Assembly (NCBI RefSeq): GCF_041381155.1
Contig: NC_091139.1
Span: 10,602,383-10,666,382 of the forward strand
Length of the DNA: 64,000 bases
Direction: 5' to 3'
Source of the DNA: Argopecten irradians
Taxonomy: Eukaryota; Mollusca; Bivalvia; Pectinida; Pectinidae
The first letter of the stretch is position 1. Every line of letters begins with the position of its first letter. A program made the translations under genes and the position numbers. Below the pieces are notes generated by a model. It did not search any database. It was not told the origin of the DNA and was given only the letters and a program-made list of their open reading frames with translations. This document shows, in pieces, positions 6,301-62,591 of this stretch.

Positions 6301-6508
6301 GGGTCAACATATATCAAACAATCATATTGTATTTCAAACGCCAAAATATCATTGAAAGTCATCGTATTGAAAACATTCAATATAACAAGTGTTCATCAAC
6401 GAAATTATTGGATATAGGATGTAACAGGACGACCATTTGTATATTTCACCATTTAAAGGAAAGAGTTTTACCGTCAAGACATTCTTCTGAATAAGGATAA
6501 AGCTTACC
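3307..6508. other. Intergenic, 3.2 kb, no gene seen
   Basis: Between paralogues A and B. It holds only short chance ORFs. A short direct repeat of about 24 bp (TTTCGTAATGAACACATTTA core) lies at 4970-5017, and a C/T-rich run at 5672-5708. The last part should contain the gene B promoter, but no clear TATA or known site was picked out. Confidence 0.5.
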
Positions 6509-14178: not shown

Positions 14179-14186
14179 TCTAAAGC

Positions 14187-21687: not shown

Positions 21688-21823
21688 AAACAATTCCAGT
21701 AAGGAGAAGCTTGATCTGCAACTCCAGGCAAGATTAGACAATCTGAAGAAAAAGAAACTACAACTGCGGAACGATCCTCCAGGCGAGGAAGGGATTGAGG
21801 AAATCGACGTATCTACGGCATAG
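21688..21823 (+). pseudogene. Orphan copy of gene B last exon, unit 2
   Basis: The CTCAG acceptor and the frame (NNSSKEKLDLQLQARLDNLK...) are intact. It ends GIEEIDVSTA with TAG 21821-21823; the last four codons and the stop are already minisatellite sequence. No other gene B exon lies in the unit, so it is either a dead duplicate or a possible alternative last exon reached by read-through. Confidence 0.7.
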
Positions 21824-22437
21824 CAACCAACATCCTCATATCTACGGCATAGCAACCAACATCCTCATATCTACGGCATAGCAACCAACATCCTCATATC
21901 TACGGCATAGCAACCAACATCCTCATATCTACGGCATAGCAACCAACATCCTCATATCTACGACATAGCAACCAACATCCTCATATCTACGGCATAGCAA
22001 CCAACATCCTCATATCTACGACATAGAAACCAACATCCTCATATCTACGGCATAGCAACCAACATCCTCATATCTACGACATAGCAACCAACATCCTCAT
22101 ATCTACGGCATAGCAACCAACATCCTCATATCTACGACATAGCAACCAACAACCAAATATCTACGACATAGCAACCAACAACCAATATCTACGACATAGC
22201 AACCAACATCCTCATATCTACGGCATAGCAACCAACATCCTCATATCTACGGCATAGCAACCAGCAACCAACATCCTCATATCTACGACATAGCAACCAA
22301 CATCCTCATATCTACGGCATAGCAACCAACAACCAAATATCTACGACATAGCAACCAACAACCAATATCTACGACATAGCAACCAACATCCTCATATCTA
22401 CGACAGAGCAACCAACATCCTCATATCTACGAGATCC
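21812..22437 (+). repeat. 29-bp minisatellite, unit 2
   Basis: About 21 copies of the same 29-bp unit as at 14187, starting in phase with the stop codon of the orphan exon. The order of variant units is almost the same as in unit 3. Confidence 0.92.
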
Positions 22438-29618: not shown

Positions 29619-29754
29619 AAACAATTCCAGTAAGGAGAAGCTTGATCTGCAGCTCCAGGCAAGATTAGACAATCTGAAGAAAAAGAAACTACAGCTGCGG
29701 AACGATCCTCCAGGCGAGGATGGAATTGAGGAAATCGACGTATCTACGGCATAG
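29619..29754 (+). pseudogene. Orphan copy of gene B last exon, unit 3
   Basis: Acceptor and frame intact; ends GEDGIEEIDVSTA with a minisatellite-supplied TAG, as in unit 2. One residue differs from unit 2 (Glu to Asp in GEDGIEE). Confidence 0.7.
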
Positions 29755-30367
29755 CAACCAACATCCTCATATCTACGGCATAGCAACTAACATCCTCATA
29801 TCTACGGCATAGCAACCAACATCCTCATATCTACGGCATAGCAACCAACATCCTCATATCTACGGCATAGCAACCAACATCCTCATATCTACGACATAGC
29901 AACCAACATCCTCATATCTACGGCATAGCAACCAACATCCTCATATCTACGACATAGAAACCAACATCCTCATATCTACGGCATAGCAACCAACATCCTC
30001 ATATCTACGACATAGCAACCAACATCCTCATATCTACGGCATAGCAACCAACATCCTCATATCTACGACATAGCAACCAACCAACCAAATATCTACGACA
30101 TAGCAACCAACAACCAATATCTACGACATAGCAACCAACATCCTCATATCTACGGCATAGCAACCAACATCCTCATATCTACGGCATAGCAACCAGCAAC
30201 CCAACATCCTCATATCTACGACATAGCAACCAACATCCTCATATCTACGGCATAGCAACCAACAACCAAATATCTACGACATAGCAACCAACAACCAATA
30301 TCTACGACATAGCAACCAACATCCTCATATCTACGACAGAGCAACCAACATCCTCATATCTACGAGA
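29743..30367 (+). repeat. 29-bp minisatellite, unit 3
   Basis: About 21 copies; same unit and almost the same variant order as unit 2. Confidence 0.92.
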
Positions 30368-34001: not shown

Positions 34002-35662
34002 ATGGACAAGGAAGAGAAAGACGAGACGAAAAATGCGACGTCATTTCAGGTATCGTCTAAATGTGAACGACTGAAAAGGACTTCGAAGGACAGATGTATG
34101 GTGATTGGTGAAACTAAGATGTATTACGGAAACATCGGGTCTGTTTATGTCATGTCTCCCATTCCGGGATCTCCAAATCCGGGAACTGAACCAGAACATA
34201 TATACATCCGACCGGAGTCCCAAAAGGAAGACACGATGCCTCTTCAGGTGACACAAAAAGGTAAAAGAATTGCTTGGCTCTAATATTTCATAAAACATTT
34301 TATCAAAACGGGAAAAAAACCACTATAACATTGCTTGAAAGTTTTGTGGCAATTACGACACTACATCGATTCGCCTATTAGTTTATTCCATCGTTAATCG
34401 TCTGACATTGAAGGTACAGTAATTAACGCATCTAATTTTTACATGCATATGTACAGAAAAAACCTAAGTATGGGTATTTACTCAACCGGGGCCGCGGTAG
34501 CGGGGTGGTTAAAATGCCCGACATATTACCACAATCCCTTGACCTCTGGGATGCTAGTTCGAATCTTATGTTAGGGCAATTGCCATGTACTGGCCTCTGG
34601 TCGATGGTTTTTCTCCGGGTACTCCGGCTCTCCTCTATCAATAAACCTGGCACGTCCTTACATGATCCTGCCTGTTAATAGGACGTTAAACTAATAAAAC
34701 CCGAATCCTCAAAGTCATCCTCGATATTCCACTCCTGTCGAGATATCCATCACTAGCCTATATCATAGCACAGCTTAAGTCTTTGTGTGCAACAATGGAT
34801 GAGATAGATAAATGAGTCACTTGATGAACAACAAAAAAATCAAATAACGGTACACTGTGTGGTTTTGAAAGTTAGGCGTCCCTCTGTACATAAGGGCAAA
34901 GTTGGACGCTTGTAGTTGGTCACACTTTCTCGTGAAACGCTCTCAGTTTTTATCCTAACATAACTCATGGGTGGGTACTGCGACAGTGATAGTAATCTAT
35001 TGAATATCGAGGATGACTATAAGTAGAATTTTCCATATAGTATCGAATCGTCTCAGTACGATATTGCTTATTTTTATTTCTTTTCAACAGATAAACCAAA
35101 GAAAGAAAAGAAAAAAAAGAAACACAAAATTATAGTTGAAAATAAGGACGTATCTCCAAATTATGCGCTGCCACCATTAAAGACCGTACCTGAAAGCAAG
35201 GGGAATTTTCCAACGAGGGAAAAAAAGGGGAGAGAACCGTGTCAATTTCAGCGTTCAAAATACTACAAAGAAAATGACTATTCAGTAGGACAAGCAGAAT
35301 CATGGATTCCACAACCAGGCTTCAAATCCAGCGGAAAGAAAACAGCACCGAAAAACACTGTGATGTCTGAATCTTCAAGTCTGAAATATGGATCACTCCT
35401 TAAACTTGTGAAATCTTCAAAGAATGTACCAGCTTCGCCGTACCTAGAAACCACTGCCATCGAGAGTGTTCGGCTTCCGCCTATCCGTGGAGCTCAGAGA
35501 AGATCAGACTCCGCTAAAACTTGTAAGGTCCCGACTGTCCCATTCATCAACCTTTACAAAGACAGTGACCAGCTCCCGCCACTCAAGGTCAGCGCCATGC
35601 CAATGTCCTACAGATACGAACAGAAGGAATATTACAAGGTAACAAAGGGCTACCAGTGGTAG
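34002..35662 (+). CDS. Gene X copy 3: uncharacterised basic protein, 2 exons
   Basis: Exons 34002-34260 and 35091-35662, 276 residues, frame whole. Differences from copy 1 seen by eye: Asn to Ile (YYGNIG), Gly to Glu and Arg to Lys in the lysine block (KPKKEKKKKKHKI), Thr to Ile, Lys to Asn (VSPNYALPP) and Thr to Lys (SLKYGSLL). The coding frame has no run-length changes although the surrounding non-coding DNA has many, a weak sign of constraint. The intron carries the shared SINE (34486-34699) and TIR element (34713-35018). Confidence 0.72.
34486..34699 (+). mobile_element. tRNA-derived SINE, unit 3
   Basis: Same insertion as at 18602, somewhat more diverged around the B box (CTAGTTCGAATCTTA). 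Confidence 0.72.
34713..35018. mobile_element. 300-bp TIR MITE, unit 3
   Basis: AGTCATCCTCGATATTC ends as at 18827, with a few indels. Confidence 0.7.
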
Positions 35663-36985: not shown

Positions 36986-37972
36986 GAACAAAGAAATAAT
37001 ATGTATTAAAATTGTACTTTGTATTTTATAAGCCGCATGGCTTACAAAAATAAACAAATTGAATTGACGTGGGAATTTGATGAAAGCGAGACAAAATGGT
37101 CACTTTTTTTTGCAATTGTGCAGCACATTTTACGCACAGTTTGTTCGATATGTAGGTTTTTATGTGATGAGAAGAATTATTTTAAATTTGTGTCCATCTC
37201 ATGTGATATTTTTTTTGCTCACCCAGACTCGTAAAGCGTAACTTATCAGACATGTTTTATAAAATGTCATATAAAATGAACACTCATTCCAGATCCTTTA
37301 TCGACGACTTTTTAAAAAAAAAGAACAATGCGTTGCCGAAGAGTAAGCGCTCACTGCTAAATAACGAATCCAGGTAAGGTTACAACCTCAAATCAAAATC
37401 GAGCGCTGATAGCAGAATTAAGTTGATAATCAATTAATTAATTAATCAATAATTGATATTACAATGAGTGTATAACGCATCTTCGGTACTATCACAGCAA
37501 ATAACCGATAAAACAGCACTTGTGTCCAATTCGGATGACAAACAGTGTACAATTTGTCGTTTATCATCAATTTTCGCACCAGACGCAAATGTTCACCCTA
37601 ATTTCGATGGCGTAGATTGTAATGATAAGGGGCTTAATCCTACCTTTTTGTGTCGTTTTTTTAGCAAAACAATAAGTATATATTAAAATAAATAATATAA
37701 AATCAATAATCAGTCAAAAAATGATACGGATTTATAATACGATTTGATACGACTTAATACGACATATAATGGATGCAGGCTTTTAGCCTCTATATCCATA
37801 TCAATATTACATGAATTCAATGATACAATGATACAATAATTACTACTTCTAGTGTAATTGTAAATGTTCTTTGTATCCATATTCTTCTTCTCGCTATATG
37901 TAGAGTATACGGTATATATAATATATACTTGTAATTTAATATTCATGTTCAGTTAATAAGCATGTATTAAAG
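36986..37972. other. Region right of the array; weak ORFs only
   Basis: Two short frames are open: one from about 37034 (MAYKNKQIELTWEFDESETK) and one at 37468-37686 with a CTICR and DGVDC spacing. Neither has a clear partner exon or recognisable family. They may be exons of an unknown gene or chance. An ATTA/ATTAATCA run lies near 37430-37450. Confidence 0.3.
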
Positions 37973-38175
37973 TTAAAATGTTTGTTGACAGTTTCTCCAA
38001 TGATTATCTAAAAGAATTTCAAATTTCTTGACATCTGTTGCATCAATAACATGCTGGGGGAAATTGTTCCAGGTATCTACAACTCTATAAGAAAAAAACC
38101 GTTCCCAGTTGGTATCATTATCTATTAGATTCAGTATTATTATTTCAGTATTCTCTTAGAGGTAAAACGTCTTTA
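37973..38175 (-). mobile_element. 3' end fragment of a LINE ORF2
   Basis: Minus-strand frame ending ...NWERFFSYRVVDTWNNFP, then QHVIDATDVKKFEILLDNHW and stop. The F-F-S-x-R-V-V-x-x-W-N-x-(F/L)-P pattern is typical of the C-terminal end of CR1/jockey-type LINE polyproteins. No RT lies beside it, so it is a 5'-truncated stub of about 200 bp. Confidence 0.7.
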
Positions 38176-39405: not shown

Positions 39406-39786
39406 TTCACGAAAATCATCATTATTTAGTGAATATTGATCAATTAATACCTTTATCATTCAGTGTTTGAAACAAGACTAGCGTATACACATTGTCACTA
39501 CTATATATAAGTTTATAATGTGTGTCATGTGGTAGTATATACATACGGCTAGTATTTAATCGGTATCTTAGATAAAAAATGTTAAACAATATCTATGTAT
39601 TCATATCACCGCTAGAAAATAGAACTGCGTGTTATTATATGGAGAGGGCTATATAGGATTTGCCTGCTGCCAAATCCAAGTGAAATCTTCTAGATTTAAT
39701 ACCGTATTTTTCGAAAGTGCAATTAAATTGAATATTTTGATAGGACCTACCACTACCGTGCATTTGAGATCTATTCGTAACGAAGG

Positions 39787-39820
39787 ATGGGAAGCGGGAG
39801 CTCCAAGTCTGAAGAGAAAG
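39787..39820 (+). CDS. Microexon gene, exon 1 (start, N-myristoylation motif)
   Basis: ATG GGA AGC GGG AGC TCC AAG ends in donor GTAAAT at 39821 and gives MGSGSSKSEEK. Gly2, Ser6 and Lys7 fit the consensus for N-terminal myristoylation. A TATATA at 39650-39655 lies about 135 bp upstream. A different frame is also open across this exon but would not join exon 2 in phase. Confidence 0.65.
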
Positions 39821-42800
39821 GTAAATATTGAAAATACGACATTACAACTATACATCAATATTTCCCATCTACTATTTTCTCCAAATTGAATGTCAAAGTA
39901 AAAAAATAATGTAAATATATTATTCCACGAATAAGAAAATATGAGTGTTTTGTCATTATTCTCAATTATATTCAGATCAATATAATCTGAAACGAGGAGT
40001 TGATTTTACAAACAGTTGTTCAGGTTAAGCCTGTGGTGGTCGAGAAACCAAAATTCACATACAAAAAAACTATGCCAACACGGCCAGAAAGCTCTGCATC
40101 GGAGGACTCGACAAAGGAACCGGAAAAACCTAAAGGAACGCCCCCTCCTCCGGTGGTCAAGTGGGAAGGTGATTTCCGGTGTAGGGGCCTTGGTGATGGT
40201 AGATTTTAAGATGGTGAATAGTGTAGCTAAGGGAAACGTCAAAGCTAAAAATTTACTAATTATCATATGTTTCGTTAGCTTAGAGGTGAGAAAATGTTGG
40301 AAAAAGGCGGATAAAATTTTAGTTTAGCCTTAGCAGCTTCAACTAGTTCTGCGAAATCTCAAGAAGACATTAAGTGTTATTTTAAACCAAATGTTTACGG
40401 TGTCGGATGTGTTTAAATTGTTGGTAAAGGTATTTGTTATCACATAAATAGGAATAGAATTCAAAAACAGGTGGTGGTTTGTGTACAACTATTAATAACT
40501 TGTCAATTTTTATTAACTGTGAACTCTCTTTCGCCTCCTTTTTGCCGTCAATGTTAAAGAGAAGGCAGACGATTTATAAGTGGACTTTTTACCACTCGTC
40601 AAGTATTGTACATAGTCCATATCTGACTCGGTATGGGTCATTCTCTTTGTCTTTTTGGAATCTTAGCTACGTTTATTGTAAACCATAAGTTCATATGATT
40701 ATGCTATGTCATGACATTTGTCTATATTTATTAATTTCCTGAAGGTTATTTGTAAGAAAATATATCGATTAATTATGTGATGTTTCATTTCAGAGTAAGA
40801 TAATGCTATTGCAGTTTGGGTGTGATTAAGCAAATAAAAGTATTTTGAAATAAGGTCTGTAATATGTCGTAACAATTTTAATGATTAATCGTTTAAATAG
40901 GAGAGAAACAGCGTGAAATCCTTTCTTGATTTTGAAATATATTTGGGATAATCATGATGGAAACTGCAATTATAAGTTAATTAATTTAGTTCAATAATGT
41001 CGAACATTACTAGATGAAAGCACTGTTTCGAGAAAACAAAAAAGCCAAAATTATATTCATAAACTTCGTATCAAAACTACTGTTTTTATGTGTGTGTAGT
41101 TTCAGAAATTTTGGCACAACATGACCAAGAAGAAGAAGAAGGTGATTGTCCGCCATTTATTACATCATTGATATTCGTTTAGATTCAATAAGTATAAGTA
41201 GATACGTATTGATAAGTTCGTAAGTTTCCATTCTTAAATAATAGAACGTGTTGAGTTTTTTGTATTTTGAAATATATTTGGGATAATCATAATGGAAACA
41301 GCAATTATAAGTTAATTAATTTAATTCAATAATGTCGAACATTACTAGATGAAAGCAATGTTTCGAGAAAAGAAAAGAAAATATATTCATAAACTTCGCA
41401 TTAAAACTACTGTTTTTTCATGTGTGTGTATGTTTCAGAAATTTTGGCACAACATGACCAAGAAGAAGAAGGTGATTGTCCGCCATTTATTACATCATTG
41501 ATTATTCGTTTAGATTCAATAAGTATAAGTAGATACGTATTGACTTTAAGTTCGTAAAGTTTCATTCTTAAAAAATAAATGTCTGTGCTGTTTTTAATAG
41601 TGAGATTTTTTGTATTAAATTTCCAGTACAATTATTCATATTTCTTAAATTACCTAGCATATATTTTTCATCAGATGAGAGTACGCTTGATGCTGTATAT
41701 GACTATGTGCTAAATTGTATTGATAAATGTCGTTTTGTGTTTTAGAACCAGAACGTGAACAATTTGTGGGTAAGTAGCCGGGTATAGTGGGATTTTGCAG
41801 GCATATTATATGCGGAAATGTAACAAAGATTGACATAATATCAATACGCTACTGTAAATCGCTTCATACAAATTTTCTCGAATTTATGTATTTGAAAATA
41901 ATAAAAACACGAATTATTGTACATGAGTACACGAGAAAAGTAGTATATTGTATAATTGATTAGTTTTTTACGTATACAAGCAATTGATCGGGAGTTTATC
42001 AATCCACATACATTGTATGCATACTAAATCACAATTTAAAGGACTTTTCTTTTTTACACTTTAGCCCCAAGAGCAACCTTCCCTATCGGTAAGATGCTAG
42101 TTTTAGTTGTTATCTTTCGCTATTTTTTTTTTTTTTGTCATTTTTTTCTTAATTTGTGTAGATGATTATGTTGGTAGATGTCTCGTTTCGATATGGTGCC
42201 GTAAATATATCATATTTGATAAGTAAATGTTTTTTAATGTTTATTATTATTACATCGAAATCCAAATATACGCTCCATTATGTCATTGTGGTTGGAGGAA
42301 AAACTAAACCATTGATTGTATTGTTTTTAACAACTGTGATCTTCAATGATGGCATCCTTCTTATAATGCTTAATACGTTGCTTGTGCAAATATTTGTATG
42401 TTTTGGGAGACTGCTGTATTTTCTTGTTATTTAGACATGCCAATTACACTTTGCCAAATTCATAGCAATGACAAGAAATATATAAGTATTATGAATGATT
42501 TTTTTTCTGGTAGTCTAATCAAGTACATATATATACTGGACACAAGAAATAAAATGACAAACATTTTTAGAAAAAAAATATTGGATATGCAAATAAAAAG
42601 TGATGATGAACTGCTGTGCAGAATAAACAAATAAAAAGTAGTTGAACATTATGACATTTTACATTCACGATGAACGTACGTGTATTCTAATTGATTAATT
42701 TTACAAGGCGGTGTAGCGATAGACTTATGAACTACAATCTGCATGTAATCAGCAAATATTTTTATTATCATTTACAGGTATCGGTCCTTATGCGTCCCTA

Positions 42801-45800
42801 GGTAAGATTTTTAAAATAATTCTTTCATAAGATATCAAATATATCTTTTGGTCACTGAGAATTTATATTGTAGGAAGAATTTAACATTACACCATTTGAT
42901 ATTGTACGACTATAATTCCTGATTCCTCAGTTACTCTGCTTTTGTTAATCTCAATTACTACTTTGACCATTGAAGCAGATATTGTATTGTCATGTCTGTT
43001 GCATTGGTTTTTTCCTCCCACTTCAGGTAAACCACGTAAAAGACCAGGTGAGTCATAAAGGACAGATGCAAAATCTTCTATAATTGTCCTTGCATAATAA
43101 AAGTCTATTATTAGTAAAATTATATATGCCTTAGTAAATGCTGTCAAATTTCTTTAATTGAAATATTGATGCACTGTAAATATATCTCAGCAACATTTTA
43201 CTTCTTAACTGCATATTGGTAAATTTGCTTATTTGAATATTTTTAGTTATCATTTTAACCTTATTAAAATCTGCTTCTTCTTGTGAAATTTCTATACAAA
43301 ACTCGTTTCTTATGAATTTTGTAACTAAATGTTATAATGATTTATAATGCCATGATTTCCTTTCGAAAATGAATACAAAATTATAAGTATTTGTTTTCTT
43401 GTGTAAAGGCGGATTATGGAACAAAATTAATTAACATTTCCTGAAGCAAGAGTCTGATGCAAATGTCTTTGTATTCCAGAAACAAAACTGAAGAAGAGAA
43501 AAACTCCGAAACCAGGTATTTTTAAGCCAATATAAATCGGCAAAATTTTCATATAGATTTGTTTTGTGTGAACAGGGTTAATTACAATATCAGAAAGAAT
43601 TAATTTTAAATCAGAATATTCCTATACCTTCTTCCTCTTCAAATTTCAACCAGTACGTCAAAACTGACATTTTGTGGTGGTCTAAACTGGGCGCTGTCGT
43701 GTGTGACGGTTATGTACGTTTAACATAGCGCTAGATTTTTCCATATTAATGAGGTTTTGTTGAGTGTTTATTTTTGATGATTTCAGAACCAAAAACTGTA
43801 GAAGAATTGTTGATGACCGGTAAGTTTACTAGTTATTCCCCTTTGCATGTACGTTTGTTTGTGACCTGACTGTCGCAGAAATTAATACTATACGTCAGTA
43901 ATGAATTTAATGTCCCATGATAATTGTAAGGTACTACAGGGAAGTTGAAAATATCCTCGGTAATTGTTTTTCAGGATAATTGACACTTGCCTCAAAAGTT
44001 ATTTTCCATTATTTCCGGTAAGGAATAATGTTTACCCGTTTACAAACATCTATTATTCAGTAAAACTCTCTCCCTTATGTACATGCACTTGGTTATAAGT
44101 CGTCGCCTAGGAAAAACGACCCGTACGTCTTTCTCACAAATGATGCATACTTAAAGACTATGAATCACTGAGTTCCTACTCAAACGAGTGTATCTATGCC
44201 AAGTTAAAGAGATACACAATGACAAGACTGAATTGTAAGCCTATTGTCTAAAGAAATTAGTTTCGAGTAATCGTGAAATAAAAAGTAAAAGTGCAATAGT
44301 GATAGTACTTGTAACATAACGCAGAACTACTATTAGAGTATATGTCAGTAAGAAATTAATCTACGGCGATTAATTAATTTAATCATGGTGATATTTCATC
44401 CAGAGAAACTGAAGAGTTTTAGATATAAATTTCCATGTCGTAATTTTCAAGATAGCAAAACCCTTTTTTCTGATATGAAAAAACATGTGCAAGTTAATTC
44501 AAAACAAAGTGATAAAAAAATTCCTCTAAAACCACGTACGTCACCAAGTACACACAGCATTGATATTATATAAGCTGTGTTATTACTGGCACCCACTCAT
44601 CCCTGAACTACACGCTGTCAACATCGGATTCCTTATATAAACTGCACCAAATTATATTCCTTGGAAGATTGTACATTTTAGTTCATTAATACAAAGTAAT
44701 ACAAAATAATGACTAAATATTTGCTATATTGTAGAATATTTTAAGTACATTTTATTTGTATATTTTTAAACAAACTTACTGTTACATAACGGATTATGTT
44801 TTTGTTTACCTTGAAAGACGGCAATCACAAACTTTTTTTCTTAAATGCATTTTTGGACCGCGGTGGCCGAGTGATCACCACTTGGACGCGAGTTCGAATC
44901 CCATATGAAGCTGGTGCATTCAAAGTTTTGAAATTATATTAATCAAAATGGTATTACCACCTTTACTGTATTGTATATTCTTTACTTTTGACATTGTTTC
45001 AGATGACAGTATCTGCCTTAGCGACCACATTTGATCACCTCTTTATCTATTCCTCTTCCTTAGGTTGACAAATGACACTTTATCATACGTTTGAATAAAA
45101 ACCACTTGGCTATATAGATACTTTTCCCTTGTTCATTAATTGGAGAGGTCGTTATAGACAGTTGTACAGTATATGAAATGTGTCGTTATAGTTACATTAT
45201 ATACTTCCCGGTTGTTTTATTAATCTGTTCTCAAGACACACGGTAAATCATTCCTCACACTCCTACGATCGTGGGCGTTGTCATGCCTTCATATGAAATA
45301 AATGCACACTGCATACTATCATATTATCAAGAGAACGGAAACAATATTGCAACATGGATGTTTACCTATAAATATTTTAACAACAACCCTATAAGGCATT
45401 TCACGTCATGATAATGGAATAAATTCTCTATATATATGTACATGTAGGTGTACCAGCTTACATAGTATGGCTAGATTGGTTGTACATATAAATGTATGTT
45501 TTTATTTGTTTCGGTGCCGTTATTGTTCATCCTTGGAATACCATCATGACTATAAACATTACATATTTATGGCTGTTGTATAACGGTTTATGGTACCGTA
45601 ACGTCATTGCTGCTTTTTTTGTTCACAACATCCTTGATTAATTTCATATTTAATACATATACATTTTGTATATCGATAGAGGTCTTCCTTCTTTAAACTA
45701 ACAGAGTAATTTCCTTTTTATAATGCCTTTTGCAAGTGAATTGATAATGGTGATCTAGTGGTTAAAATGTACCAATATTCCAATATATAATACCACGATC

Positions 45801-48800
45801 CTTCCATCTCTGGCCCGCGAGTTCGAATCCTAATTGGGCAGTTGCTGGTACTGACAGTAAGTCGGTGGGTTTTTTCCTGGTACTCCGGCTTTTCTCCTCC
45901 TTACCATGTTCAAAATGAAAAAGAATAACAATAGATAAGATTGAATTTAATTCAATTCGCAGTATTATTTACCTAAATGTTGTATTTCATTCTTCATATT
46001 AATTATGAATGATCATTCCTCTTTTATATTTCGAAAAAAATAGTATTTTAGCAAATGCGGTAAATATCGTACTTGTTTTTTGTAAGATACCATAACATTA
46101 TCGAAGATTTCAAGATTTTATTTAGTTTTTTTATCAAATAGGAAATTTTATACAGGAAATAAAATTTAAAAAATAAAAATGGTCGAATTATCATGTTATG
46201 CATACATTTATCTATATCAATTTAACTTAACCCTTATGATTAAGTAACCATTATCTTTTATGTGTTCATGTTGAGTTCAATAAAGCTTGGTTTATATTTG
46301 TAAGTGAGGTTTAGCTTACGAATATACCAAATGATTGATTACTTTTTGTGTGAATGTTTATAGACTCTGAAGAGGAAGAGGATGAAGAGGAAGAAGTGGA
46401 GGAAGAAAGCAAGGAACTAGAGAACAGTAAGTATGTCAAATATATTATTGATGATGCTGTGGCATGTATATACAGAATAGAAAACAGTAGATATGACAAC
46501 CGTATTATTGTGGGTGCTGTGTTATATATACTAGTGATAGAGTAAGATAGATTACCTATCTGAATACTTCTAATGTTTGAGGCCGCAGCATAATGATTAA
46601 TATAATTTACCATTGGACAGTTGTACGATGTTCATTACAATGGGATTGATCAGCTCAATTCACATTAAGTACTGGAACGTATATTCTAACGGTCAGTGGA
46701 ATGGATATTGAAGAAGCTATAGGTTGCACATAATAATTTTACGGATATACTTAGATAAACGAATGTAATATTCACGTTACACTAAGGGGGGATCTCGTGA
46801 CTAATAAGGTGAGTTGAGATATGACATAATAATATAAATGACGTCTATAAACACAGTATACAGATAATACTTACTTTTTTCATTTTTTTCTCACAAACTC
46901 TTTTTCAGTTTCAGTTCCAAGACCAAAAACTAATCAGGCAGGTACGCCATCCATCTTTTGTACAATAAATCAGAACAATATATATTCTGTAATAGATCGG
47001 CTTCTTTCACGTTATATTCAAATATTTACAGTTTGCACTGACATAGACTCAATAACCATGCTTTCTAGTATTATCAGAGTATAATGGTAGCACAACACGC
47101 GCGCCGATTCTATTGTTACGGGAACAGTCGATGGCGTAGCAACGTGGGGTCATGACCCTACTTTTGGTGGGAACTTATGAATGACTCGATTCCAATCAGC
47201 TGTTCCATCGAATTCGTTGACGATGACAGGAGTGAAAAAATGGGTATTTGGGTATTTCAATTAACAAATATGCAACTGCCGGGAGAATAATTAATATTTA
47301 TTTATGTGAAAAACTGTAAATATAAGGAATATATTTTTATTTTTTTGAGGTTATGAGGGCATAATGATAATGGAGGCCGTGTAAATTTTATGTAGCCCGG
47401 CTTCGCCGGGGTTACATAATTTACACGTGCTCCATTATCATTATAACCTCAACAAAATAAACATCTATTCCTTAATGCAACGATAATGACCTATGAAAAC
47501 TAATACGCTTTCGAAAGTGTTTGTATGTCTGAAAAAATGACATAATGTTTTGTATAAGAAAATAAGCGTACACAGATTTTTTATTGGTAAATACATGGCA
47601 TGTGTGATACTAGGATTGAAATATACGAAGTAAACAGCGTAAAACAGTGAATTAAAATAAGTCATATTCACGTCAATGTGAATATCAATATCGCACCATG
47701 TATCTTACTGATGTCATTATTCATACAAATTATTACTTATGCACTTCTTTTGGTAGAAACACGCGCCACGACTGTTATTACTGTGGTAAACAATGAAGAT
47801 AACAGTGCTGATGATGACGATGATTCAGGTTGGTTATTTATGTTTATTTTGTATGTTTACATACAAATTCATTGTTCTTTTGACAATGTCACTTTATCAT
47901 AATCAAACAGACCAGATGTCATGCATGAACAACATACATTTTACATGTGTTATGACCCATACAGTTATCGAGATGATTATCTGTATATATCATTTGCGTA
48001 TGAATTCATCACGGTTTTAACGAATCTTCAATCTATTGCGACAAAATATCTTTAAAGCCACACTATACGTAACTATCAGCAAAAATTCAAGTTAAATTCG
48101 ACTCCGATATTGTTAGTATTTGTAGTTGAGTTGAAATTAAGATATAGCAAAGAATATTTATAAATGGTTTTTTTAATAACTTTGGTACAGCAGTTGTTGA
48201 AAGTCGATACATGTAAACATGCCTTCATTTTAAACTGGTCGCCAGAAGTTACGATTATTGCCGAACGGAAGTCGGAAGGTTCATGACCCGTGTTTGGAAG
48301 AGTTCGGACAGACGTTACGTAGTTACGGTAGTCACATGACGTTCTCGGCAACAACGTTATACGGTCGGCTAACTTCGGCTTGTTTGACTAAGTGGAACCC
48401 ACCTAGAGATGTTTAATATTTATTTGATTTTTATCAAAATATTTCTAATCATAATCGCTCATCTTGACTTCGATTTAGTCCTGTCTCTGCATGATTTACA
48501 ACAGGATTTTTTTTCGACATTCTTCTAAATCACGAAAAAAATAGAAAGATACGGATATTGGGCCTTTAAGGTAGGTTTCGCCCAACCTAATAAATATTTT
48601 TGTAAAACAGATATACAAACAGAAGAAAAGACGAAACTACATATTTAACATACCTCAATTTAATTTCCTAATGCGTAAGAGGTTGAATAAACATGTCATG
48701 AATACAAAATTGGAGGAAATCCTTGTTTTATAAACGACGAATGACTGACTGGTTAGTATGCAAATGAAGCTGCGATGGTTTGGGTTGTCGAAGTTTCGCC

Positions 48801-51800
48801 CTTGTTGTGCACTAAAAATAAACATAACAAAATGGCTGAACGAAAGCGTGTGAAAAAATGGTATCTGAATCGGCAACAAAGAGGAGGAAATTGGAATGGA
48901 ATCGATATGTTAGGGAATAAAAGTCAGAGGTGGTATGCTTCAAAAGTAGAGATAAAAGCCGCGTCTGATGCGGAGCTTGCCAGGATTCTGTTGGACTCGT
49001 GGTAGGACTTCAACACATGTTAGCGGAAACGCAAGTGTTGTAGATTATATGGAATGTGTAAACGATCATTACGCAGACGAACTCGATATAGTAGGTCTAT
49101 GATCTCCGACATTTTGTTGCTAACTTTCGTTTGTTGATACAGCATCGTTTTGGACAAATTAACGTCTTTTTTCTATGTAAAACCTGACTTCCGTCTATTT
49201 TTAGAGGAGTATTTTCCTGGTCAAGTTGGACAACTGACCACCTATATTGTTCGCTGTATGTATTGAAAATGGTCCGAAGAATATACCTTTGTATAGGATA
49301 AATTCTATTTTCGTTGCCATTATATTTCATTTTGGCGAAACATACCTTTAAATCTTAACTTTCATTTTTATTTGTTTTTGCATTTGGTCATGTTTCAGAT
49401 ATCGAATTTGGCAGCCAATTTTCAGGTTAGTATAACACAGTATTGTGTTTCATATACAAAGCTTACGTAGGTCTTTACTCAGAAAATAATATTCATAATC
49501 GATAAGAAATTGGTCATTTGTACATTACATGTATGTATGAAGACTTTACACGAACGTTTAAGACTCTGCTTTCATTATATACATGTATTTATATTTTTAT
49601 TATTTTTTTTTTCATTTATTATAACAGTTTCCCAAGTACTTTTTTTTATTGGAGACAAGCCCTGTAACGATATCCATCTATATCTAAACACATAATGTTT
49701 AATTGAAATCCTATGTTGATATTATATCTATGTACGATCCTTATTAATAGTTATAACAAAAGTAATGACTATAAAATACATTTTCTTCTTTAGTTCTAAA
49801 ACATTCCAAGTTATCATCACCATGAAATATGACTCAATATGATATAAAATTTTATTTACCCAGTGTGACTGAAATACATTATGGCTCTGTCTGTTTCAGG
49901 ATTAAATACGGTATACTCAGGTAGGTGAAACCATAAGATACAATGTATAGAAGTACAAACTTTCTAATAATGTAAGGATGGAAACGAAATGCGATGATTT
50001 CCAGATTATAACACTTCTTAAACTTCATGTATTCTAGTAATGCGTAATTTCTAGACATATTGTATTATACGTTGTCATTAACAAAGTATTTTGATGGATT
50101 TATAAAGTGAATGCCAAATATGTAAATGTATTAGTTGATTAATATGATTTTACGATCGATGTAATTTAAGGACAAGTCAAATCTTAGAATATGGAGGGAA
50201 GCCTGAAAATCCTGATAACAATGTCACCTAAATGAATGCTGAAAACACAAACGCGAAATCGAATTCAGAGACGTATATAGAGTCTATTTTGGGGAGAATT
50301 AATCACAACTCTATGTTATTTATATGATACAGCAAACATGTACATATTACATATTACATTTTAAACGACATTTTATGGGGGTTGGGGAATTTAAAGCAAA
50401 GTAAGCTTAAAATATCAGACAGAATATCGAGAAATATAGTAATATAATGATTTGTTACCATTTTTTGTTTGAAGGACCTGATGTCTTGTTTGTTGCACCA
50501 GGTACGTATGCATACTTTAAGATTAAGAATTTATTATGCATGCTTTATACTTACCTCTTCATCATGGATATTCTTAAAAAGACTTTTTAAATCTTCTACA
50601 ATATGTTTTTACAATTCGACGGTAATCATACAATTCATTTCAGAATCTTAGAGTTAAATGCACACTAGGATTGAATTAGGGACGTTCGCAGTTAGTGGTA
50701 CAGGTAGATATAGTACGGTGGTTGGAGATCCAAAAAATGACGATCGTAAAGTACGGACTACCTTCTATTATTCCCATCTATCGGTGATTATGACGTCACA
50801 AAAATCACTTCAAAAGGTGACGTAAAAATCATTGAAAGATGAGACCAATCGACAGCAATGCATTACTTTACCCACATCATTTTGGGATCTCGACGTATTA
50901 ATATTCATCAATGCCACAAGACTTGTCATTTTAAGTACTAGTGATGTAATTAAGACTCAAACATGCGATAAAGAATCATTAAGATATTTCAAGTAAGTGC
51001 TTGGAATGTATCGACAATTATTCTTAATGAGGCCTACGACAGCAATTGAGACGCTCCCATATTTGTCAGATAATGATGTGGTTTAAACTAACTTATATAA
51101 CATCAAGTATTTCTGATACAAGACTATTATTAAATACAATGTGAACTTCATCCATTCTTGTTAACTTAAAAGAATGATCAATATTTTAATTCCAGAAACA
51201 AATATGCCTTCGAAAGAAATAGGTAAGCTTACGCGAAATCTATGAGAATCGTGTTTCAAGATCTAAAGATATATTGCATTAGTAAATATAATTCATCGTG
51301 CATTGCAATTTTGAAAAAAAGTGATTTTTTAACGTCCATGATGTGTTTTGATATACGTAAAACATGTATCTTTATATTTACAGTTGACCAGGGAAAACAT
51401 CAATACGCGTACGGTACGTATTTATTGCAAACCCGGCTTTGAACATTAACTCAAATATACAATTTACAAAAACAAAATAACGATTGCTTTATCTATGGGC
51501 GATAGTCTGCCCTTTAGGCCTTGGGAGCTTTCATTACATAAAATAACAATAACATTTTGATTGATAGCTACATAAAGCTTTAAAGTGAATAGTCGGGCAA
51601 AGAAAACCAGTCTAAATGCGTTCATTGGCCTTCCAAAAGTTCTCACATATTAATACGACGGTCAAGTTCTGCTTACGTTTCCCAGTTCTGACCATTGGAA
51701 AGAAGAAAGTTGAAAGCATTGAAAGCGAGGCCGCGTGGAAATGTAACCACGGACATAGTCAGCCGGGAGGACGTTTTAGGATTCCTACACTTTAAATTAA

Positions 51801-54174
51801 TTTCTTCGTACGCAGACAATTTTTGAGGAGAGATTTTATTTTTCTATTTCATAAGGAATTATACTGGATACATTCACACCATTTTTACCGACTTTAGCTA
51901 TCCTTGCCCGACTGTTCACTTTAAAGAGTTTGATGACAAATATCTTACAACGCAAGCACAATTGTTAAAGCGTGTCTTTTCCGTTACAGGTCAATATCCA
52001 AGTAAGTACCAGCGTTTTGAATATCAAATCTTTAAATTCAAGTTCTACTAACAGTAATATTTCAGCCTGATCAAATTTCCATCAAACTGATTTTGAAAAC
52101 GTCAGTTTAATGATGAATTCGAGTTCGATGAAATCTTATTTTTTATCTTAAAATGATAGAGCACATTTTTAACGCAAATGCTTTTTTAAACAACTCTGTT
52201 ATATGTAAATACAGAACTGAATTGACTTATTAAATGTATTAAATATGTGTTTTCTGCTGAAATATATCAAGTCTTTTTTCTTTGTAGTGTCTTTTTCACC
52301 TGTTCAAAGCCAAGGTAATTTTTAAACATTTTGACATTGCATATAATGCAAGGCACCCGATTGCCATAATTTAATTTGTGAACCCAATTTTAGCGGAAAA
52401 AATGAACCAGAGAGTTGTTGAAAATAACACTGATAAACCTGACTCTAAAATAAATGTGTATAGCCTCAAATAACCGCTTTTTGCGCTGTTGAAATGAACT
52501 CAATTACCTGTGTCCTACGATGCTGTTCACACAAACAACCAATAATTACCATTTATGATGCTATAGTGTGAATCAAAGTTTACAAAATGAAATTCTTTCA
52601 TTGCTGTATTAGTTCGCCTTCACTTCTTCGGAATAACATCATTCTTTATTGTGTGAAAATATTTTCCGAAAAGAGCATACCTACTTTGTACTTTGAAAAT
52701 ACTAAATACTAGTTCACCCAAGATATGAATTGTATAATGTATTAATTACAGTTGATTATAATTCGGTACCTCGATTGCTTTTTTACAGTTGACCTTCGCG
52801 CTACGATCAAAGCGCCGGAAATACGTTACACAGAGGAAGAACAGTCAGACGAAGGTAATTGGCTTATGTTACACATGCTATTTGTTAACATGTAAACAAT
52901 AACACAATACAATAGAAATTGGTGTATTTGTGGCCTGTATGTGTTTATTTGAGGGTTCTTTTTGGTGGGTTTTTTTAAATTTTATTTTCATTTTTTTTGT
53001 ATTTAATATTTTTTGTGTTAATTGATCTCAAACATGTCTCAAAATTAACCATGAAAATTATGATGATGTATTTGTATATTATCAAAAACAACTATTTTTG
53101 GGGAACAACATGAATTGATAACATATTAACATATTTATGAATAATGGACTTTTTATGAGGTTTAAGTGCTGTTTGTTGCCTTGGTAGAATTAAATAATAC
53201 CCAAGGGCATAGCTCAAAGTCATTATTTTATATTCTACTTAAGGCGGTTTAACACTATATGGATTGAATCAAAGGTCCGTAATATTCCTATTAGATATGT
53301 AGTTCCTTTGACATATCCAAAAGAATTACCCGATGTATATTTTATTAAAAAATCTGATGGATATAGGACGTTACCCTGAAAAACTCAGCTTTTGTGTATG
53401 ACGTCACAGAATCGTAAATATTGTTATATATCGATCAACGCTTGACCATATATTAGCCAACGAGAAAACAGGAAAACCAGGGCATATATAATGTATATAA
53501 ATTTTTGGCAATGCGTTTTTATCATTTTGAGTTTTTCGTCTTCACTTTCTCTTTCCATTCCATTTTTTTACAGAAAATGCCGATCCTATTCTGAATGCAT
53601 GTAAGTAGCATCATTCTATAAATCATTTGACGTACAGGAATTAATACTATGAAATCAGTTTGGTTGATCAAATTTTAGTCCCTTGCGTTAACCTATAATT
53701 ACACTACGTATGATTTGTCTATTTAAAAACAGATTTTCAACCACAAATGACGAAAACTCAACAAACAAACAAAACACCGTCTCACTCTGATTTTTCGGAT
53801 TCGGGTAAGTGCATAATTTACTAATTTAAATTGACACAAAAATAGTAATACAGAAAATATATGTAAAAATGTAATATAGAATATAATATGTTATATTGGT
53901 ATGATATGAGCTAAATCAACGATTACCCGTTAGCAATATTATTTTTATTTGGTCTAATATACTAAAGAACATACAGTTGCTGGTTATGACAAGAACTTAC
54001 TTGTCTCACCATAATAATGATGACTGAATTCTCTCATTATCCTAATGAGGACTTAATTTTCTCGTCTTCTTATGAGAACTTTCCTTTCTCATCATCATTT
54101 GTCATTATTTTTCAGAAGAAGAAGAAGATATGTCGTGGCTAGAGGATGGGAGGATAAACAAACAAATGGGATGA
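39787..54174 (+). CDS. Microexon gene: 24 exons, all introns phase 1, 326-residue disordered protein
   Basis: Exons: 39787-39820, 40016-40168, 41106-41141, 41439-41471, 41746-41769, 42065-42088, 42778-42801, 43027-43047, 43480-43515, 43787-43819, 46364-46426, 46909-46941, 47757-47828, 49399-49425, 49900-49920, 50475-50501, 51196-51222, 51384-51413, 51990-52001, 52288-52314, 52789-52854, 53574-53600, 53733-53804, 54116-54174. Each has an AG acceptor and a GT donor (mostly GTAAGT-like), all 23 introns are phase 1, the 22 internal exons are multiples of 3, and the total is 981 nt with one stop, TGA 54172-54174. The protein starts MGSGSSKSEEK (myristoylation-type), then a Pro/Lys/Glu segment ending PPPPVVKWE, then short blocks alternating basic (ETKLKKRKTPKP), acidic (DSEEEEDEEEEVEEE) and neutral (GIGPYASL), ending MSWLEDGRINKQMG. 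No domain or signal peptide. Architecture recalls schistosome micro-exon genes and titin PEVK exons; homology to either is not claimed. Single exons could be wrong; the regular phase makes the whole secure. Confidence 0.8.
40931..41625 (+). repeat. Local tandem duplication that copied a microexon
   Basis: About 330 bp repeated head to tail (copy 1 from 40931, copy 2 from about 41264), including upstream intron, acceptor, microexon and GTGATT donor. The exons encode EILAQHDQEEEE (41106-41141) and EILAQHDQEEE (41439-41471); one GAA codon was gained or lost. Both remain in phase. Confidence 0.88.
44404..44573 (+). CDS. Possible alternative last exon of the microexon gene
   Basis: After a TTTCATCCAG acceptor the phase-1 frame stays open for 56 residues (EKLKSFRYKFPCRNFQ...STHSIDII) and stops at TAA 44571-44573. 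It lies in the largest intron (43820-46363). If used, the product would end after exon 10. There is no clear AATAAA nearby, so it may be chance. Confidence 0.25.
44855..44925 (+). mobile_element. SINE fragment (tRNA-like head only)
   Basis: GGACCGCGGTGGCCGAGTG (A box) and GCGAGTTCGAATCCCA (B box), then unrelated sequence. A truncated copy of the family at 54537, in intron 10 of the microexon gene. Lack of a foldable acceptor stem argues against a true tRNA. Confidence 0.6.
45750..45910 (+). mobile_element. SINE, diverged, partial
   Basis: GGTGATCTAGTGG head, GCGAGTTCGAATCC B box, then GGGCAGTTG and TACTCCGGCTTTTCTCC as in the fuller copies; the 3' tail is lost. Same intron as the fragment at 44855. 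Confidence 0.65.
46364..46426 (+). CDS. Microexon gene, exon 11 (acidic block)
   Basis: 63 nt coding DSEEEEDEEEEVEEESKE and a short tail, ending in A|GTAAGT. It is the most acidic block; exons 8-9 just before it are strongly basic. Frames read across the donor and on the minus strand are shadows. Confidence 0.75.
47346..47451. mobile_element. Foldback element with GC-rich tip
   Basis: Outer arms TGAGGTTAT / ATAACCTCA, then AATGATAATGGAG / CTCCATTATCATT, then GTGTAAATT / AATTTACAC, with the tip CCGGCTTCGCCGG. A 106-bp imperfect hairpin in intron 12 of the microexon gene. Confidence 0.7.
48565..49352 (+). mobile_element. 790-bp candidate TIR element with a 57-codon ORF
   Basis: Left end TTTAAGGTAGGTTTCGCC and right end GGCGAAACATACCTTTAAA are near-perfect inverses. 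Inside, 48832-49005 encodes a basic 57-residue frame starting MAERKRVKKWYLNRQQRGG. No transposase is seen. It sits in intron 13 of the microexon gene; family unknown. Confidence 0.5.
51990..52001 (+). CDS. Microexon gene, exon 19 (12 nt)
   Basis: GTCAATATCCAA between CCGTTACAG and GTAAGT adds GQYP plus the first base of the next codon. The strong splice sites on both sides and the kept phase are the evidence; its size is far below what exon-definition models handle easily. Confidence 0.55.
54116..54174 (+). CDS. Microexon gene, last exon
   Basis: After TTTTTCAG the frame reads EEEEDMSWLEDGRINKQMG and ends at TGA. It opens with a run of Glu codons like exons 3 and 4. No AATAAA is evident just downstream. 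Confidence 0.75.
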
Positions 54175-55990
54175 TCACAAAAAAGACTTTTGAACTTAAT
54201 TAAAAGATAATGTATATAAATGCACAGTTAATAGATAAAGTAGATTTTATAGATACCACGTTTATAATTGTTGTATGATATTCTTCTATTAAGAGTGTAG
54301 AAATACACGTGGCAAATTGCTAATATTTTCATTCACATTGTGTATATAAAATGTGCATTATTATTCATCAGTTACTGCAACCATCTTATTTTTTGACGAC
54401 TTTATCTCTGATATTCATTGAGATATATAGTTAAACACTCTTGAAATGATGCTCGAGTGAAAATGAATTTGTTATAACAACTAAACACTTCAATAATAAT
54501 ATTAATAATATCCATAAATTAGAGGATATATTGGTTGGACCGCGGTGACCGAGTGGTTATGATGTCCCGACATAATTACCACAAGACCTCTGGGTCGCGA
54601 GTTCGAATCCCACGTGGGGCAGTTGGTAGGTACTCCTGGTTTTTTCTCCTGGTACTCTGGCTTTCCTCTACCAACAAACCTGACACGTCCTTACATGGCC
54701 CTGGCTGTTAATATGACGTTAAACTAATAAAACAAAACTAACCAAAAAAGGATATATTGCAGACGATATATGACACTTATCCTTCCATCTTCTTTTCCAT
54801 GACGCAATGAAGAACTCAGTAAAAGTAATTAATCAGGTGCAACAGACGACATAAACCCAAACTGGCCATTTCATGAATGGACAATCTCGGAAATGACAAG
54901 TGCTTGCATGTTTCCAGTAAGAGTACGAGAAATCTGAACTATTGGCGACCCTTACAAATTGAGTTTTAGATTACATGTTAATTTCCCATGTCCGTTTTCG
55001 CATGGCATCTAATGAAAGAGTCAAGCGTTGGTTGAAACATCTTGTCGCTTGACCTTGACCACACTCATCTTAGCGCTTATTGTTCAATTTCCATGTCCTT
55101 TCGCTAGACGGATAAGCCGTGCTGTGAAGTAGTTGAGGAAATTGAGTAGACCTCAAATACACATTTACTGATAGGTATTTGCCCAACGATTGAGGTAAAA
55201 GGTCAAACAAGAATACAGCAATTACATGCTGCCAACATAGTCGGGAACACTTAAATAACAATAATAGTATAGATCTTTTCCGAAGTTTTGAATACAAAAA
55301 AAGCATAGCTGTATTAAAGAAATAGATTTTAAATGCCGTGTAATCGCAATTCATATATTATACCCAATATTAATAGCTACGTTTGTTAAACGGAAATAAA
55401 ATCATGTTGAAGACAAATATTTTTGTGTATTAATGATGTGTGGAAAAACCTACCTTATTTGAAAAAAAAATGATTGCTATGTCAAAGCAAGGTGATTTTA
55501 ATTTCATTTCAAAATTTCCACTTTAAGCTCAATCAGAGCGTATTAAAGCGTATACGTGTGTCTGTCTTTGAGAATGTGAATAAATATGATCATAATACAT
55601 ATTTTCAAGGATGTGATTTACACTTAAGCTAATGTTGAAATATGGTGAGATTGACTTTGTGGCCAATCAACTAAGAATGACACTGATGCTTTTGATAGAT
55701 ATATTAGGTTACCAATCTTGATTGAAACCTGTTACAGAATTAGAAAACACAAAATTGAGGCTAATGTTGGGGAGTCAAACATTCAATTACGAAAGTAGCT
55801 TATTTTCAAGATTAATCAGTTGACAAATGATATATGACTTAACATTCTAGACATTTAGTACGAGTTAACACAAATAGGGACTAACTGGTCAATTAGTAAG
55901 ATCACCGTTGCTGAAAATAGATATATGGGCACGTTTGAATGTCAGTCTTGCCATGACCGAGAATCGACATATTTCTTTAGCAATGTTTAA
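54175..55990. other. Downstream of the microexon gene: SINE, otherwise no gene
   Basis: The 3' UTR end of the microexon gene is not identifiable. Apart from the SINE at 54537 I see only short chance frames, including a 94-codon minus frame at 55070-55354 without motif. Confidence 0.4.
54537..54745 (+). mobile_element. tRNA-derived SINE, full length
   Basis: The best copy in the window: GGACCGCGGTGACCGAGTGG (A box), GCGAGTTCGAATCCCAC (B box), GGGGCAGTTGG linker, and 3' tail ATGACGTTAAACTAATAAAA followed by an A-rich end. Confidence 0.82.
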
Positions 55991-60416: not shown

Positions 60417-62591
60417 CTATAGGTATAAATAATAATTACGGGTATATTTGTCAGAGTATATAACAACAAGATATATACTATGTATTATAATATTATGTAG
60501 AATTCCAAATCTTCTGCTGGACTTTATAAATGAATGCACAAGTTCAAATACATGACAGTTTACTTCCAAAGCCAAGTTTTCATTTCCATAAAGTAATAAA
60601 TTTAAATTTACTTGTATATCTAAATCATTTAAAACTTGGAGCATTTCTGTATGGGCAGCAGCATAATTTTAACATACAAAAAAGAAATGGTTAGCATTTT
60701 CACAAGTGTAGCCACAATTTATACAAATAGAATTTGGTGCCAAATTTACACGGAAAAGGTCATCGTTTAGAGAACTACACTGATGACTTAATTTAGTATG
60801 TATAATATTAAATTTTCTTTCTCCATAATTAAAATAACATGGTAGACTCATAGATATAGACTGAGAAAGAGCTAGCTTAAAGGAAGAAAAAGGTAAAGAT
60901 TTAACTTTAACATCTAAGTTGTTCGAGCTTCTTTAAGTAGTGGGAAAGAAAGATTTTGTTGTAGTGGAGTCGATAATTGGAATTTGGAAACTTTCACAAT
61001 TTCTTAAAGTATAAGGATTATGATAGCCTAGTAGGAGGTAATAAGTTATTTATCTTATAAAGTAACTGTAGTTTTCTTTTAGCTCTTCTGTCTGAAAGGG
61101 GTTCCAAATTTGTTTCAAAATATAATGATTCATTTCTAGTATAACACGGTAATCCGCTAATAATTAGCCTGAGAACATCCGTCCCAAACTTCACATGCAT
61201 ATTCAAGAACAGGTAAAATAAAAGACTTATAAATTCTTAAAAGAGCATCATGCTTTAACATATATTTGATTTTCCTTAGGATATTATTATTATTATTATT
61301 ATTATTTTTTTTTTTTTTTTTTATAACTGATTTATAAATTTCATTGATGTGATCAGACCATTTAGCATTTGAATTAAAATGACCTCAAAATGTCTATGAA
61401 AACTACTAAAATCTAAAATGTTCCATCAAAAATTAAGTCCAAATATTTGTCAATGTTATCAAAATTTGATATAAAAATTACCTCAGTTTTATTAGGATTA
61501 AAAGAAACAAGCCACGTTTTGCCCATCGATTTGATTTATCTAAATCCCTATGTAAATCTGTTTCTAATTCACGACATGAAGATGATGACTTTATAAGGGT
61601 AGTGTCATCAGCGAATAAACGTGTTGTTGATTGAAGTTCATCAGCTAAATCATTTATATAAATAAGGAAAAGAAGTGGTTCAAGAATTGAGCCTTGAGGG
61701 ACATCTTCTCATATCATACCAATATCAGAAGAAGAATTGTTTATAAATACGTTTTGATGTCTTTCTCTTAAGTAATTTTCTAACCAGGACAATAGGTTAC
61801 CCAATCGAAATACCATATGATTTTAATTTAATTATAAGACATTTGTGCCAGACTCTGTCAAAGGCTTTAGAAATGTCACAGAATATCATACAAATACCGG
61901 GTATGAGATTTAGACAAATGTTATGGTATATTTATTTCAATTAATTGGTATACTATTGAATGACCAGGCATAAATCCGGCTTGAAACTGGTAAAATAAAT
62001 TATTATTATTATTAAATAATTATGCACGTGCTTAAACATTACCCTTTTAAACACTTTCCCAACTGTGAACAGTAGAAAGGAGAGAAATGGGACGATAGTT
62101 TGATATAGAATGTCTATCTCCTTTTTTAAAGAGAGGCATAACTTTAGCCATTTTCCATTCATTTGGAAATATACAGGTAGATGAAAGAACCTTAAGAGGT
62201 TTACAAACTGTATCAGCCATGTATTTAAGTCTATGGTGACTTATACCATCTTCACCTGAAGCTTTTCCAAGCTTTAAATTAATTAAAACATCACAAATTT
62301 CATTAGAAGTAACAAGTAGATTATTTAAAACACTATTAGTTTTCAACTGTAAAATAGGCACTTGCTATCGTCAATATTAGTAAACCTACAGAAATATTCA
62401 TTTAATAGATTTGCCTTGTCTTTATCATCTACAATGTTACCCCCACTAGCTACTGCTGGAGCTGTAACACTCGAAGTACTGGGACCATTCTCACTCCGAC
62501 TGGCTGCTGCACTCAACGACATGGAACCATTCTTGTTCCTTACATAGGGGCTGGTAGAGAGCCTCGAGGGTCGCTTTCCCTTACCCCGCAC
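60417..62591 (-). mobile_element. LINE (CR1/jockey-like), 5'-truncated and decayed
   Basis: Read on the minus strand from 62591: linker with DKANLLNEYFCRFTNIDDS, then GKASGEDGISHHRLKYM and KVMPLFKKGDRHSISNYRP (RT blocks 1-2), FCDISKAFDRVWHKCLI near 61860, VPQGSI near 61700, the catalytic FADD at 61604-61615, LEPLSDRRAKRKLQLLYKIN near 61090, and a C-terminal Cys/His region CINCGYTCENANHFFFVC near 60680. The frame changes several times (for example near 62350 and 62050), so no full ORF2 remains. No endonuclease domain is seen, so the element is 5' truncated. The 3' end is near 60417. Confidence 0.85.
61279..61324. repeat. (TTA)n plus poly-T microsatellite
   Basis: ATTATTATTATT run followed by a long T-run, inside the LINE. 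Confidence 0.85.

Follow-up and report, generated by a model that had tools for sequence, protein, structure and literature searches.

We analyzed a 64,000-nucleotide stretch of the genome of the bivalve Argopecten irradians (contig NC_091139.1, positions 10,602,383 to 10,666,382 of the forward strand; hereafter the window, with positions counted from its first letter), in which a preliminary description had proposed a gene built from 24 mostly very small exons. When the exon chain was rebuilt from the raw sequence of the window, from ATG to TGA, the 24 exons, all on the + strand between positions 39787 and 54174 and ranging from 12 to 153 nt, joined into 981 nt (including the TGA) encoding 326 residues, so that the proposed coordinates and codon number were reproduced. 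The 22 internal exons have a median length of 28.5 nt, with 12 of 30 nt or less and 17 of 36 nt or less, and all of them are, as had been claimed, divisible by three. The introns (132–2544 nt, the tenth and thirteenth of the 23 being the longest) are all GT-AG and, as chained, all in phase 1. Uniform phase 1 is well supported from intron 2 onward; for intron 1 the claim is unproven, because the acceptor of exon 2 is weak. These features support a single, genuine protein-coding gene that appears to be made of symmetric phase-1 microexons.

Table. Exons of the microexon gene and neighboring elements. "Chain" marks exons of the rebuilt 24-exon chain and "finder" those also returned by a generic-matrix chain finder (see text).
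Feature	Position	Strand	Length (nt)	Source	Remarks
Exon 1	39787..39820	+		chain	MGSGSSKSEEK; ATG with A at -3 and G at +4; donor score 3.7
Exon 2	40016..40168	+	153	chain; finder uses 40024	weakest acceptor; stronger acceptor at 40024
Exon 3	41106..41141	+	36	chain	EILAQHDQEEEE; alternative in-frame acceptor 41100, used by finder
Exon 4	41439..41471	+	33	chain, finder	tandem duplicate of exon 3
Exon 5	41746..41769	+	24	chain, finder	
Exon 6	42065..42088	+	24	chain, finder	
Exon 7	42778..42801	+	24	chain, finder	
Exon 8	43027..43047	+	21	chain, finder	GKPRKRP, basic; top exon score in region
Exon 9	43480..43515	+	36	chain, finder	ETKLKKRKTPKP, basic, KKRK resembling a nuclear localization signal
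Exon 10	43787..43819	+	33	chain, finder	
Exon 11	46364..46426	+	63	chain, finder	acidic, net charge -14
Exon 12	46909..46941	+	33	chain, finder	
Exon 13	47757..47828	+	72	chain, finder	acidic end
Exon 14	49399..49425	+	27	chain, finder	
Exon 15	49900..49920	+	21	chain, finder	
Exon 16	50475..50501	+	27	chain, finder	
Exon 17	51196..51222	+	27	chain, finder	
Exon 18	51384..51413	+	30	chain, finder	
Exon 19	51990..52001	+	12	chain, finder	four residues
Exon 20	52288..52314	+	27	chain, finder	
Exon 21	52789..52854	+	66	chain, finder	
Exon 22	53574..53600	+	27	chain, finder	final base T; joined to exon 24 gives TAA
Exon 23	53733..53804	+	72	chain, finder	weak acceptor (-2.5)
Exon 24	54116..54174	+		chain (finder scores internal exons only)	terminal; EEEEDMSWLEDGRINKQMG, acidic, then TGA; acceptor score 5.1
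Possible polyadenylation signal ATTAAA	54199..54204	+			consensus match alone; next signal, AATAAA, at 54726
Tandem duplication, 335-bp period, 2 copies	40922..41577	+			holds exons 3 and 4; repeat finding, then alignment

The chain was compared with chance expectation using a chain finder, a dynamic-programming procedure with textbook donor and acceptor matrices that were taken from general knowledge and not fitted to this gene; any intron phase is permitted, no stop may occur within an exon or across a join, and the score is built from internal exons alone. On positions 39701-54250 it returned 25 exons with a score of 120.4. Twenty of the 22 internal exons were recovered exactly, exons 2 and 3 being returned with the acceptors 40024 and 41100, and a further exon overlaps exon 1 with an identical donor and a different frame. 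Twenty-three of the 25 are phase 1 both in and out, the exceptions being the first two. Two additional exons, 44404-44535 (score 0.6) and 48984-49001 (score 1.3), were weak and were excluded from the chain. Exact recovery stayed at 20 of 22 with exon penalties of 1 to 4 and was 17 and 16 of 22 at penalties of 5 and 6. By comparison, 500 dinucleotide shuffles gave a mean score of 13.8 and a maximum of 37.8, the same positions read on the reverse strand scored 10.2, and 14 scans elsewhere in the window (14.55-kb stretches from seven starts, both strands) scored 13.2–51.9 with mixed phases; the highest of these, at 1-14550 on the + strand, lies above the largest shuffled score and probably stems from a different gene. 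A test blind to reading frame gave a similar picture: among the 20 highest-scoring acceptor-donor pairs that do not overlap, 15 enclose a multiple of three, against 6 of 20 on the reverse strand and a mean of 6.7 (maximum 14) in 300 shuffles. The shuffles, the reverse strand and the other stretches of the window lead us to reject a chance assembly of splice-like sites and to uphold the earlier view that the regularity is very unlikely by chance.

Composition within the chain also carries a coding signal. GC content by codon position is 57/37/34%, versus 31% in the introns, and there is no frame break along the 326 codons. When codon-position composition was used in a leave-one-out manner to choose a frame for each exon, keeping the splice-forced final G of exons in place, the splice-defined frame was chosen in 17 of 24 exons; the same test on 300 sets of intron pieces gave a mean of 8.1 and a maximum of 16. 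A tblastn search of the window at E<=10 for a second copy of the gene matched nothing but the exons of the chain itself, 3 and 4 also matching each other; as low complexity was masked and some tiny exons of the gene went unmatched, copies of single small exons could escape this search. Relatives were sought with the exon 2 peptide in viral_contigs (49 pattern matches, none confirmed) and with the whole 326-residue translation in genome_contigs (593 pattern matches, none confirmed), two collections not intended to hold animal DNA, for which reason these empty results say little.

The predicted product is acidic and free of cysteine. Its mean scaled hydropathy of 0.371 lies under the disorder boundary of 0.453 in the charge-hydropathy comparison; a Pfam-A search with the 326 residues gave nothing at cut-off (one sub-threshold match, PF09081, E 0.15) and no match at E<=10 was found among 177635 PDB sequences, in agreement with the earlier description of a disordered protein lacking a known domain. 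Charge is distributed unevenly, with +9 over exons 8-9 and between -5 and -14 in each of exons 3, 4, 11, 13 and 24. Provided that the start codon is right, there is no signal peptide-like start (best 12-residue Kyte-Doolittle mean in the first 40 residues, 0.60), and no transmembrane-like stretch was found in the whole protein (best 19-residue mean, 0.77).

We next consider whether the cassettes are likely to be skipped. Of the 276 forward joins between exons, 275 are open, the sole exception being that of exon 22 to exon 24, and 3145728 of the 4194304 subsets of internal exons stay open. Nearly all of the exons could thus be dropped without loss of frame, much as had been claimed, which is a statement about frame and not about actual skipping. 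Twenty of the 23 upstream exons end in G, and with phase 1 introns the junction codon is therefore almost always GNN, which cannot be a stop; because open joins follow from phase and donor consensus in this way, they are not in themselves evidence of skipping. The same final G means that, when an exon is skipped, the residue at the junction with the following exon would usually stay as it is. The strength of the splice sites falls with exon length among the 22 internal exons (rho -0.66, p 0.0009; rho -0.60, p 0.004 without exon 2), versus a rho of +0.11 for 624 exons from 100 shuffled chains. Mean strength is 9.8 for the 12 exons of up to 30 nt, 6.9 for the five of 31–36 nt and 4.5 for the five longer ones. 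Stronger sites on shorter exons suggest that most exons are normally included, and such a trend is the expected result of selection for dependable inclusion of tiny exons. Neuronal microexons of the SRRM4 type have a UGC motif immediately 5′ of the acceptor; for the gene overall, TGC is not in excess: it occurs between -40 and -3 at 8 of 23 acceptors, where randomly chosen positions give 6.4 +/- 2.1. The signs in the DNA thus appear to lean against skipping for most exons. The candidates for alternative use would be exons 2, 9, 11 and 23, on account of their weaker sites, the tandem duplicates 3 and 4, and again exon 3 for its two in-frame acceptors.

The two copies of the tandem duplication align without substitution over 33 exon bases (3 gap columns) and with 16 substitutions over 243 intron bases (9 gap columns). 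When all exons were compared by blastn together with 80-base flanks, exons 3 and 4 alone were clearly related. A kinship of exons 22 and 23 was rejected, as the match lies in a common flank, and the remaining matches span just 13–17 bases. Duplication of a cassette is therefore demonstrated for one pair only.

By its anatomy, the gene would work like a schistosome micro-exon gene (MEG). MEGs have short, mostly symmetric exons of 6–81 bp and introns of 0.1–5 kb, the longest lying centrally, and are described as difficult for automatic annotation (PMC10526429); here every internal exon is symmetric, 21 of 22 fall within 12–72 nt (the other being 153 nt), and the longest introns are likewise mid-gene. 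The differences are also clear. The majority of MEG exons are 15 bp, whereas none of the 22 internal exons has this length; MEG proteins are secreted and have a signal peptide, followed by a hydrophobic motif (PMC10526429), whereas no signal is present in the product as chained; and isoforms of MEG 2.1, although described as intrinsically disordered (PMC10399815), are called hydrophobic, whereas the product here is acidic. There are 35 MEG genes, against the single copy detected within our window. MEG isoforms come about through alternative splicing of the central exons.

Other genes share parts of this organization. Tropoelastin, triadin and similar proteins are encoded by many small symmetric in-frame exons and are of low complexity; they are extracellular or membrane proteins, whereas our product has neither a signal nor a transmembrane-like stretch. 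The PEVK exons of titin are themselves symmetric and phase 1, and the first residues of cystin may be similar to those predicted here. For titin, the likeness lies in the many symmetric exons (311 of 363 coding exons over the whole TTN gene; PMC9222585), and in a spring region rich in Pro, Glu, Val and Lys. The content of these residues plus Ala is, however, 0.448 in our product overall and reaches the per-exon cut-off of 0.54 used by PEVK_Finder (PMC6469411) in just 7 of 24 exons, and Pfam found no titin domain among the 326 residues. With cystin, which is myristoylated on Gly2 (PMC6678300), the product would share an N-myristoylation-type start if the ATG of exon 1 is right, but the ciliary targeting motif AxEGG described in the same source is missing from the 326 residues as read by eye. 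On these analogies the gene would best be classed among symmetric-microexon genes. No molluscan microexon gene appeared among the papers listed from the open-licence literature, which is weak evidence for the earlier suggestion that the system is undescribed.

Based on these results we give about even credence to the following reading as a whole: the gene encodes an acidic, probably disordered cassette protein, most of whose exons are included and a minority alternative, and which acts as a flexible tethered scaffold. The 22 internal cassettes, of 4 to 51 residues and each cut after the first codon base, would form a protein of about 326 residues. The default transcript would include most of them, with exons 2, 3, 4, 9, 11 and 23 the best candidates for the alternative minority. 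Should translation truly begin in exon 1, the scaffold would be tethered to a membrane through its N-myristoyl start, and it would bear short basic motifs (exons 8-9) and acidic ones (exons 3, 4, 11, 13 and 24). Gain or loss of a cassette could then alter tether length, charge and bound partners with the frame untouched, making the protein a putative tether on which charge and motif cassettes can be exchanged. Were the cassettes alternative, this would be micro-exon protein diversification without secretion; were they constitutive, the inverse relation of length and strength would be a clean example of splicing coping with a chain of 12–36 nt exons. Several observations, together with those on the 5′ end given below, weigh against this reading. 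The gene is known here from genomic sequence alone. For 7 of the 24 exons, none longer than 36 nt, composition favors a frame other than the splice-defined one. Tiny exons with weak sites are hard to notice, which may partly create the strength trend. That any exon is alternative is something we infer. Finally, identity of the exon 3 and 4 copies would arise without selection with a chance of about 1 in 9 by hand estimate, and with so few bases constraint on these exons is not demonstrated.

The 5′ end bears on the proposed tether. The acceptor of exon 2 at 40016 scores -5.4, the 51st percentile of the 3070 AGs in the window, whereas that at 40024, 8 nt downstream, scores +2.9; the frame of the exon 1 ATG, spliced into 40024, runs into TAA after 12 residues. 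Either the proximal acceptor is used or the 5′ end differs. The latter, which is compatible with the other readings, is a substantial possibility, if short of an even one: exon 2 would begin at 40024, exon 1 would be untranslated, skipped or in another frame, and translation would start at an in-frame Met in exon 2 or further upstream, in which case the internal phase-1 run would remain, at least one 5′ intron would have another phase and the lipid anchor would be lost. The routes preferred by the chain finder enter 40024, through 39744-39820 (read 1-to-0) when started from 39701, and through 37227-37373 and 38149-38161, bypassing exon 1, when started from 35663 or 36001. The exon 37227-37373 (+ strand, 147 nt, phase 2 in and out, with strong splice sites) sits between a triplicated gene, described below, and the microexon gene, and may belong to the latter as an upstream exon or to another gene; it links in frame to exon 2 only via acceptor 40024 and the 13-nt exon 38149-38161, which scores only 0.9, and was for that reason assigned to the alternative 5′ end and kept out of the chain. 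Against a different 5′ end stand the context of the ATG at 39787, an in-frame TAA just upstream of it (39778-39780) and the start MGSGSS, which matches the N-myristoylation motif MGxxxS (PMC6678300). The myristoylation-type start of the preliminary description is thus present as a motif, but it hangs on the weakest junction of the chain and an alternative 5′ route exists. With a weak acceptor at 40016 and a better one at 40024, the junction of exons 1 and 2 is unproven, as are the N-terminus and the phase of one of the 23 introns, and we regard the phase of intron 1 and the lipid anchor as provisional.

The remaining alternatives differ mainly in how much skipping they require. A serious but minority possibility is that the gene is real and all or nearly all of its exons are always included, uniform phase being a by-product of growth through exon duplication and the insertion of symmetric phase-1 exons, with no regulatory use. 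The strong sites of the shortest exons, the lack of TGC enrichment near acceptors and the visible duplication of an exon in the 335-bp tandem copy all fit this reading; however, no convincing exon family exists beyond exons 3 and 4, so that duplication is seen in one pair, and open joins would be unneeded if nothing were skipped, although they are near-automatic from phase 1 and the final G. At the other extreme, many cassettes could be skipped independently of one another, yielding peptide variants in great number, as in a MEG. The anatomy (PMC10526429) and the number of open subsets are consistent with this, but we consider it unlikely, as the shortest exons have the stronger sites and the product as chained has no secretory signal and hence no obvious extracellular target for variation. 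An intracellular counterpart, in which about 22 cassettes of a lipid-anchored, disordered tether could each be skipped independently, with some 3.1 million open combinations generated from a single locus, seems to us similarly improbable. This repertoire has a built-in off switch, the stop formed when exon 23 is skipped after exon 22, and perhaps a second in the distal acceptor of exon 2, which leads to a stop after 12 residues; if it were true, a MEG-like design would have evolved for intracellular use instead of secretion. Hardly credible, finally, is that the chain consists of chance splice-like sites or is a decayed pseudogene. The acceptors of exons 2 and 23 are weak, and the gene, seen in genomic sequence only, has no relatives in the collections searched, but its finder score is 120.4, whereas none of 500 shuffles exceeded 37.8, and an unbroken frame of 326 codons with a codon-position signal argues against decay. 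Since the gene could be recovered from genomic sequence by a short script, it is well suited as a trial for detecting genes of this kind elsewhere.

Elsewhere in the window we noted several other elements. Three near-identical open frames of 211 codons lie on the + strand at 19136-19771, 27068-27703 and 35027-35662, about 7.9 kb apart, and other open frames around them repeat as well, indicating a tandem triplication. The first copy, the only one searched, gave no Pfam or PDB match. The spacing of the triplication is mirrored by three arrays (14184-14919, 21810-22431 and 29741-30364) of a 29-bp minisatellite, each with 21–25 copies. Two diverged copies of another gene, about 10 kb apart, are found on the + strand at 1026-1176 with 1731-2234 and at 11000-11150 with 11372-11815; the longer frame is Ser/Arg-rich, and the intron phases of the copies are mixed in the chain finder. 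ARAGORN found no tRNA genes in the window. Stretches on the + strand at 44850-44910, 45800-45900 and 54535-54740, with box-like GTTCGAATCC runs, resemble tRNA-derived short interspersed elements as judged by eye, and an open frame on the - strand at 62047-62364 resembles, by eye alone, a fragment of a reverse transcriptase of the long interspersed element type.

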